The position numbers and the translations under genes were made by a program. 21,551 nt of DNA from a virus. The DNA lies in IMG/VR virus record IMGVR_UViG_3300025276_000250, positions 1-21,551 of that record; one strand, written 5' to 3'. Below are positions 20,575-21,551 of the stretch, piece after piece; the stretch's first letter is position 1, and each line of letters opens with the position of its first letter. The notes below the pieces were generated by a model. That model did no database searches, was not told the origin of the DNA, and saw nothing but the letters and a program-made list of their open reading frames with translations.

Positions 20575-21105
20575 TTAGTTAGCTCTTGTTAAGCCTAATC
20601 GTTCAGCATCTTCATTAAGAAGATTTAGTGCTGCTTTGTTTTCGTCTTCTACTTCTTTAGCTTTAAGTTTACCTTTAGCTACTGAAGCTGCATCTTTGTC
20701 TAACCAACCCTTATCCAATAAGAGTTTGGCTGCACTAAAGGAACTTCTTCCGTTAGACTTCATTTCTTCAGCTATAGCTTTGATAGCTTCTGACTTAACC
20801 TTGACCTCTACCTCTTTTCTCCATCTGGATATGTGAGGCTTAACTCCTGATGCTGTTGACACGTTCTGCCATACATCCCATGAACCAAAGACTGTCTGAG
20901 CAAACTCGTACTCTGTTGGGTCAGCTGGAGCCATCTGTAGGTATAGTTTCTGTAATGACAAGTACATTTTGCCGTGAGCTTCGAGGTCTCTATCTTTAAG
21001 TGTGAACACAGCATCTTCTGTACCTGAGTAACATAACTCATAAAATAAACTCTTAGTCTTTGTCTTACCGTTAGAACCTTTAAAGTTTTCGTACTGGAAC
21101 ATCAT
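20575..21105 (-). CDS. Small terminase-like protein
   Basis: The 176-aa protein begins MMFQYENFKGSNGKTKTKSL and contains LKDRDLEAHGKMYLSLQKLY (about 37-56), DPTEYEFAQTVFGSWDVWQN (about 62-81), and a helical basic middle (ISRWRKEVEVKVKSEAIKAI). A SAAKLLLDKGWLDK motif (about 124-137) follows, and the protein ends in a charged tail. I recall this layout from proteins annotated as small terminase in marine podoviruses. Small terminase recognises phage DNA and recruits TerL. It is the first gene of the leftward operon, about 30 bases after the predicted transcription start, with only a weak ribosome binding site (GAAGAG). Two ATGs are adjacent (21105 and 21102). It is separated from terL by 6.1 kb of fibre genes. 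Confidence 0.7.
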   Translation of the reverse strand: MMFQYENFKGSNGKTKTKSLFYELCYSGTEDAVFTLKDRDLEAHGKMYLSLQKLYLQMAPADPTEYEFAQTVFGSWDVWQNVSTASGVKPHISRWRKEVEVKVKSEAIKAIAEEMKSNGRSSFSAAKLLLDKGWLDKDAASVAKGKLKAKEVEDENKAALNLLNEDAERLGLTRAN

Positions 21106-21140: not shown

Positions 21141-21170
21141 AGTATACCATGGTTGTGATATATATGTCAA
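21141..21170 (-). promoter_or_regulatory. Leftward sigma-70-like promoter of the structural operon
   Basis: TTGACA (21170-21165), an 18-base spacer and TATACT (21146-21141) lie just upstream of the small-terminase gene. Transcription would start near 21134 and leave a leader of about 30 bases. The spacer end and -10 contain ACCATGGT, an 8-base palindrome, and match a second box at the terL start. This is the natural promoter for the leftward late genes and suggests use of host RNA polymerase, perhaps with a phage regulator. Confidence 0.75.
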
Positions 21171-21219: not shown

Positions 21220-21248
21220 TTGACACAAGTGTAGATTGAGTGTATAAT
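21220..21248 (+). promoter_or_regulatory. Near-consensus rightward sigma-70 promoter
   Basis: TTGACA (21220-21225), a 17-base spacer and TATAAT (21243-21248) match the bacterial housekeeping consensus at all twelve positions and at the optimal spacing. Transcription would begin near 21255 and run right, away from the structural genes. About 50 bases separate it from the leftward promoter, so the two may influence each other. The first 200 bases downstream hold no useful reading frame and end in a terminator. Confidence 0.85.
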
Positions 21249-21259
21249 TTCATTACTAG

Positions 21260-21295
21260 CCGCCAGGCGGTATAAGTATATACTATAGGTATACC
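21260..21295. promoter_or_regulatory. Palindrome cluster at the start of the rightward transcript, operator-like
   Basis: Three palindromes follow one another: CCGCCAGGCGG (21260-21270), AGTATATACT (21275-21284) and GGTATACC (21288-21295). GGTATA occurs directly at 21269, 21288 and 21298, the last two 10 bases apart (one helical turn). They lie just after the predicted start of the rightward transcript, a common place for repressor sites. The first is also the first RNA hairpin, so part of the symmetry may serve RNA structure instead. Confidence 0.4.
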
Positions 21296-21317
21296 AAGGT
21301 ATAATCCATTACTCTAA
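21288..21317 (-). promoter_or_regulatory. Possible third copy of the leftward promoter box (weak)
   Basis: TTAGAG (21317-21312), 18 bases and TATACC (21293-21288) repeat the spacing of the two better leftward promoters, and the ACCTTGGTATA part matches their ACCATGGTATA and ACCGTGGTACA. The -35 is poor. If active, it would fire left across the rightward promoter. The bases are also part of helix 2 of the candidate small RNA. Confidence 0.3.
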
Positions 21318-21422
21318 TGTCTATCTAAGCTTGGTAGTCTACGCAAGGTACTTACGGTAAAGCCTAAGGACACGTCCAGATTCTACTGTAAGCACCACCA
21401 CCCATACAGATATTACATGCAG

Positions 21423-21459
21423 CCCACCATTGGTTAACTCCTTTGGTGGGTTTCTTTTT
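21423..21459 (+). terminator. Rho-independent terminator of the rightward transcript
   Basis: A perfect 7-bp stem, CCCACCA (21423-21429) with TGGTGGG (21444-21450), with a 14-base loop, is followed at once by TTTCTTTTT (21451-21459). This is a standard intrinsic terminator for plus-strand transcription. The loop is fairly long, so termination may be incomplete and some transcripts may continue to the right. Confidence 0.8.
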
Positions 21460-21551
21460 GCATGCTGTGGAAAATCCTTAGAAAATGTTTTGGTGTAATG
21501 TACATATAGAAGGATACCCCCAAGCCCCCTTGTTCGATCCCCTAGTGTTGC
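21460..21551. other. Last 92 bases: no supported gene
   Basis: After the terminator I see no convincing gene, promoter or repeat. C-runs on the plus strand (ACCCCCAAGCCCCCTTG, about 21516-21532) are followed by TTCGATCCCCTAG, which looks like a tRNA T-loop but lacks a matching stem. A plus-strand frame from ATG at 21485 runs off the edge after 22 codons with no good ribosome binding site, so I leave it uncalled. Confidence 0.5.

Follow-up and report, generated by a model that had tools for sequence, protein, structure and literature searches.

A candidate small-RNA gene ahead of the terminal repeat in Veravirus-type cobaviruses

A consensus promoter and an intrinsic terminator bracket a stretch at the right end of a viral genome, which raises the question of whether a discrete RNA is made there and, if so, what it does. 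The DNA analysed in full (the window) is the 21,551-bp virus contig IMGVR_UViG_3300025276_000250, and the gap at 21.2-21.5 kb is its right genome end. To judge from its sequence, the window is a Veravirus-like cobavirus (Zobellviridae, Cobavirinae). By its proteins, the nearest named phages are Roseobacter phage CRP-5 and Lentibacter phage ICBM2, both of which are filed under Veravirus. Cobaviruses infect marine Rhodobacteraceae and occur worldwide (PMC6775973). All structural genes of the window run leftward, and its right end contains the following features.

20575..21105, minus strand: gene for a 176-aa phrog_8035 protein, probable small terminase subunit (PHROG match; the PA11 homologue abuts TerL)
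21141..21170, minus strand: divergent late promoter TTGACA-N18-TATACT, driving the phrog_8035 gene (promoter scan; same position in ICBM2 and CRP-5)
21220..21248, plus strand: RNA-gene promoter TTGACA-N17-TATAAT, an exact 12/12 sigma70-type match
21255..21459, plus strand: non-coding RNA of about 205 nt, predicted to start 7 nt past the -10 box and to end in the U tract
21422..21459, plus strand: intrinsic terminator (fold z -4.1; chimera test z -8.1)
21497..21551, plus strand: start of the direct terminal repeat (DTR), placed by homology, as the annotated DTR of ICBM2 starts at the same ATTGTACATACAG motif, which is conserved in relatives

The promoter, RNA and terminator form a cassette that occupies a single place, flanked by the phrog_8035 gene and the DTR start at about 21497. 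The leftward late promoter (21170-21141) stands back to back with the RNA-gene promoter. The window ends inside the DTR, which begins 38 nt past the terminator. A block reading AGAAAAT...GGTGCATTGTACATACAG.AGG.ACCCC lies across the DTR start (21460-21510 in the window, and in relatives). It was recognisable in Siovirus and more loosely in PA11, and is a candidate terminase cut or binding site. Near-perfect sigma70-type promoters were also found to recur ahead of cobavirus capsid and terminase genes (promoter scan, minus strand; L109:28619, L111:28106 and L110:29377; L109:34015 and L111:33944).

The initial annotation had described the neighbouring gene as the small terminase gene. In Pseudomonas phage PA11, whose TerL is 50% identical to that of the window, the phrog_8035 gene directly adjoins TerL, and this gene order makes a small terminase identity probable for the 176-aa protein. 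Searches of Pfam, NCBIfam and PDB sequences and a fold search that used a low-confidence model gave this identity no support, so the claim stands as plausible on gene order.

The promoter matches the consensus at 12 of 12 positions with 17-bp spacing, as had been reported. The terminator consists of a GC-rich 7-bp stem, CCCACCA (21423-21429) paired with TGGTGGG (21444-21450), which is extended by G-U pairing, encloses a small inner stem of two pairs and is followed by TTTCTTTTT to position 21459. A consensus terminator scanner overlooked it only because its outer loop exceeds 8 nt. The longest sense open reading frame within the RNA is 10 codons, and no conserved frame was found when 20 relatives were compared, in agreement with the earlier statement that the unit holds no useful frame. 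The window thus contains a non-coding stretch with a promoter and a terminator of its own, as expected of a stand-alone non-coding RNA. Folding of the whole RNA yielded a z of about -2.2, which divided into -4.1 for the terminator alone and -0.4 for the remainder. From the window by itself the description of a well-folded transcript is therefore weak, and it became convincing only by comparison.

Relatives were collected by scanning with the adjacent 176-aa protein, which returned 41 IMG/VR loci. Two of these (L045 and L057) had too little upstream DNA and were excluded. A promoter was scored when it matched at least 5/6 and at least 4/6 positions at 17-bp spacing, and most matched at 12/12. 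The cassette was present in 38 of the 39 assessable loci, the exception being L050, and a separate scan, keyed to the start of the repeat, turned up additional contigs in which the cassette precedes it. CRP-5 and ICBM2 also carry it, unannotated in both, while in CRP-4 it is degraded, with a weak promoter and no clear terminator. Promoter and terminator were both absent from the corresponding gap in SIO1, P12053L, ICBM1 and ICBM3. The cassette is missing in the sister genus Siovirus, which shows that cobaviruses as a group can do without it.

This distribution bears on one of the roles that had been offered, a packaging RNA like the pRNA of phi29, which we now consider very improbable. Such a role would suit a structured, sequence-variable RNA encoded at the genome end near a probable terminase gene. 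However, the packaging motor here, a TerL of T7 type that carries a nuclease domain, is not of the phi29 gp16 type, and ICBM1, a Siovirus whose TerL is 69% identical, has no cassette at this place. The Rfam pRNA model was unmatched even at E 10. Thus the three marks by which a pRNA might be known, namely an Rfam match, a gp16-type ATPase and presence in all phages with the same motor, were all lacking.

Across the relatives the predicted RNA varies from about 125 to 260 nt, and its body is poorly conserved in both sequence and length. The 5' hairpin, an A/U-rich hairpin and the terminator are kept despite this variation, and two boxes, A and B, are kept in many lineages. These elements lie in the window as follows, all on the plus strand.

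21259..21268: 5'-terminal hairpin H1, GCC-GCCA-GGC (chimera split at nt 6-15, z between -3.3 and -5.05, lowest p 2e-4)
21269..21295: A/U-rich hairpin H2, GGUAUA...UAUACC (from folding; weak chimera support, z about -1.9 near nt 27-30)
21292..21336: helix H3, pairing 21292-21298 with 21330-21336, UACCAAG/CUUGGUA (shuffle, permutation and chimera tests)
21347..21396: second helix, pairing 21347-21358 with 21385-21396 over 12 positions with one mismatch and one G-U (group-specific)
21363..21386: conserved box B, CCUAAGGACACGUCCAGAUUCUAC (comparison of relatives)

In a global alignment of the full RNA, the RNAalifold consensus recovered only the terminator, and segment-wise and chimera tests were therefore adopted. 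For the chimera test, hybrids were built from 14 lineages, each taking its 5' part from one lineage and its 3' part from a second. Native combinations outperformed these hybrids at the terminator (z -8.1), which bears out the intrinsic terminator of the initial annotation, and at the 5' hairpin, where z ran from -3.3 to -5.05 and p fell as low as 2e-4. Weaker signals were obtained for H3 (z -2.4, p 0.01, split at nt 48-51) and inside the RNA body (z -2.6, p 0.005). The same test applied to upstream and downstream DNA gave no consistent signal. In addition, RNAs without the terminator were more stable than shuffled sequences when 14 lineages, which are not fully independent, were pooled (Stouffer -6.3; -5.3 for the 5' 45 nt), and with this pooling the claim of a well-folded transcript held.

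Both long-range helices named in the initial annotation were present in the sequence as described, and they fared differently among the relatives. H3, the first of them, had a matched pairing score of 59.0, against a mean of 48.9 and a maximum of 53.5 in 500 shuffles; permutation of lineages gave p 0.05. The second was confined to window-type relatives; L022, L023 and L032 have one of its pairs disrupted, and a different pairing takes its place in other lineages. The 3' arm of H2 overlaps the 5' arm of H3, so that the two are mutually exclusive. H3 closes box A (AAGGUAU.UCC, about 21296-21307), and box B has the consensus AAGGACA.GU.CAGAUUCU across lineages. A hairpin sequence of about 26 nt, AAAGTAGTCGAAGACTACGCCTTCTC with its near reverse complement, was found inserted in some relatives, within the RNA in L025/L002 (L002:3966-3988) and just past the terminator in L027, L028 and L032/L006; it resembles a tiny mobile hairpin.

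Conservation of the promoter, the terminator and the 5' hairpin strongly supports a discrete non-coding transcript, and compensatory change was found together with a negative flank control, as expected of a stand-alone non-coding RNA. Comparison of the relatives establishes that the cassette exists, that it has one location and is conserved, and that the hairpins at both of its ends are compensated, and on these comparisons we conclude that the existence of an RNA gene is well supported. The same results make it least probable that the locus is a conserved DNA site with incidental promoter-like and hairpin features and no RNA function. The box B core and AT palindromes do recur as DNA around the DTR, but compensation was seen at both hairpins and not in the flanks, and the 17-bp promoter spacing and the U tract are kept.

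What the RNA does was approached through its position. When the genome ends are joined, the unit points in the same direction as the left-arm early genes, and it might then be their attenuated 5' leader, read across a concatemer junction or in a circularised genome. In favour of this proposal, the first 2 kb of ICBM2 contain no promoter with at least 10/12 matches at 17-bp spacing. In the linear infecting genome, however, the DTR alone lies downstream. Moreover, a separate promoter occurs to the right of the DTR in window-type relatives (TTGACA-N18-TATAAA, L006 near 8305) and in CRP-5 (TTGACA-N18-TATGTT), and the terminator is conserved by compensation. Rather than downstream genes served by no other promoter, the DTR and a separate promoter intervene. 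A leader, also among the roles first offered, is thus disfavoured and we regard it as distinctly unlikely.

The main rival to our preferred reading is a transcript for replication or for processing of the terminal repeat, in which polymerase near the right end would prime or open the DNA, or would stall at the terminator and thereby aid concatemer processing. The unit keeps a constant position beside the DTR, and in concatemers the early and late blocks diverge from this gap; the arrangement is that of Ceduovirus, whose PE1-T transcript is a precedent (PMC7150918). The late genes too have strong sigma70-type promoters, so that host polymerase seems to do the work. The box B core, GACACGTT, is found on both sides of the DTR, recurring 206-251 nt to the right of its start in several window-type relatives. 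On the other hand, priming would need no terminator before the repeat, and GC skew is slightly negative in most of the RNAs, so that R-loops are not favoured. Siovirus lacks the unit yet has DTRs and the same types of replication genes. The spacing from terminator to DTR is also loose, ranging from about 36 to about 130 nt among relatives, and can hold an inserted gene. This last case is L097, in which an HNH/endonuclease-VII-like gene (phrog_3322; L097:3409-4107) lies between the RNA terminator and the DTR start and replaces the conserved DNA that usually precedes the repeat. On balance we consider a replication or repeat-processing transcript rather unlikely. A further reading, that the RNA represents a new class tied to genome ends, transcribed by the host and acting on the processing of concatemers or the replication of the terminal repeat in T7-like phages without an RNA polymerase of their own, seems to us improbable.

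The best explanation, which we put forward tentatively, is a stable phage small RNA that is made by host RNA polymerase and acts in trans, and a regulator of host or phage messages is accordingly the best remaining guess among the roles first proposed. On this view Veravirus-type cobaviruses have a dedicated small-RNA gene. Its transcription from the consensus promoter would fall to the RNA polymerase of the host, since the relatives have no annotated phage enzyme of this kind. The RNA would begin with a stabilising 5' hairpin, contain the conserved boxes A and B within a body that is otherwise variable, and stop at the intrinsic terminator ahead of the terminal repeat, and the free RNA would then act during infection, most likely by base pairing with messages. 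Its transcription, stability and action in trans are predicted from these sequence features. The loose spacing between terminator and DTR, together with the inserted gene in L097, suits a diffusible product better than a cis site of fixed spacing. Against a trans-acting small RNA, the fixed place by the DTR and the box B core beyond the repeat hint at a role linked to the genome end, and poor conservation of the body and absence from Siovirus also count against it. A scan of start-codon regions found no phage target shared by ICBM2 and CRP-5.

Rfam searches at gathering and relaxed thresholds gave no match for the RNA, in keeping with the earlier remark that it resembles no known family. A match to isrG in ICBM2 (L015:2280-2434) fell below the cut-off and lies inside an annotated tail gene. 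As for a host origin, the box B pattern gave 18 scattered matches in bacterial genomes, which by our own estimate is about the number expected by chance. The RNA is not mentioned in the main texts searched on cobaviruses and RCA phages. Another non-coding element, about 95 nt long and likewise conserved, was observed in the left arm, on the right-hand side of the DTR, in Siovirus, ICBM2 and CRP-4 (L110:345-450, L109:471-575 and L112:40605-40701; also in SIO1, L043 and L065). It showed two-sided changes in 6 of 18 predicted pairs among only 6 sequences, had no Rfam match in the genomes scanned and, among named phages, occurs in cobaviruses only.

An RNA gene conserved across one of the two cobavirus genera and headed by a consensus promoter probably ranks with the strongest transcription units of the genome, and its presence in the cultured phages ICBM2 and CRP-5 makes its role directly testable. 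The unit resembles the trans-acting small RNAs of phages and prophages in having a stand-alone promoter, stable hairpin ends, a Rho-independent terminator and no reading frame. It differs from them in having no known target or chaperone, and the RNA family itself is undescribed. Like phi29 pRNA it is a small structured RNA encoded at a genome end, but it accompanies a T7-type TerL motor with a probable TerS, close relatives manage without it, and it has no Rfam match. T7 has the phi-OR promoter near its right end, and a pause at the concatemer junction. The promoter described here likewise lies near the right end of a T7-like genome with DTRs and points toward the terminal repeat; unlike phi-OR, it is of host type and is followed by a strong intrinsic terminator before the repeat, with compensation at the RNA level and loose spacing to the repeat. 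PE1-T of the Lactococcus Ceduovirus (c2) is a non-coding origin transcript whose groups differ in length and sequence (PMC7150918). Both transcripts are non-coding and vary among types in length and sequence, and in both cases a strong promoter lies where early and late blocks diverge. The RNA of the window differs in being short and ended by a conserved intrinsic terminator beside a terminal repeat, in a different phage family, and would be at most a candidate origin transcript. It is a new family within a known kind, the phage non-coding RNA.
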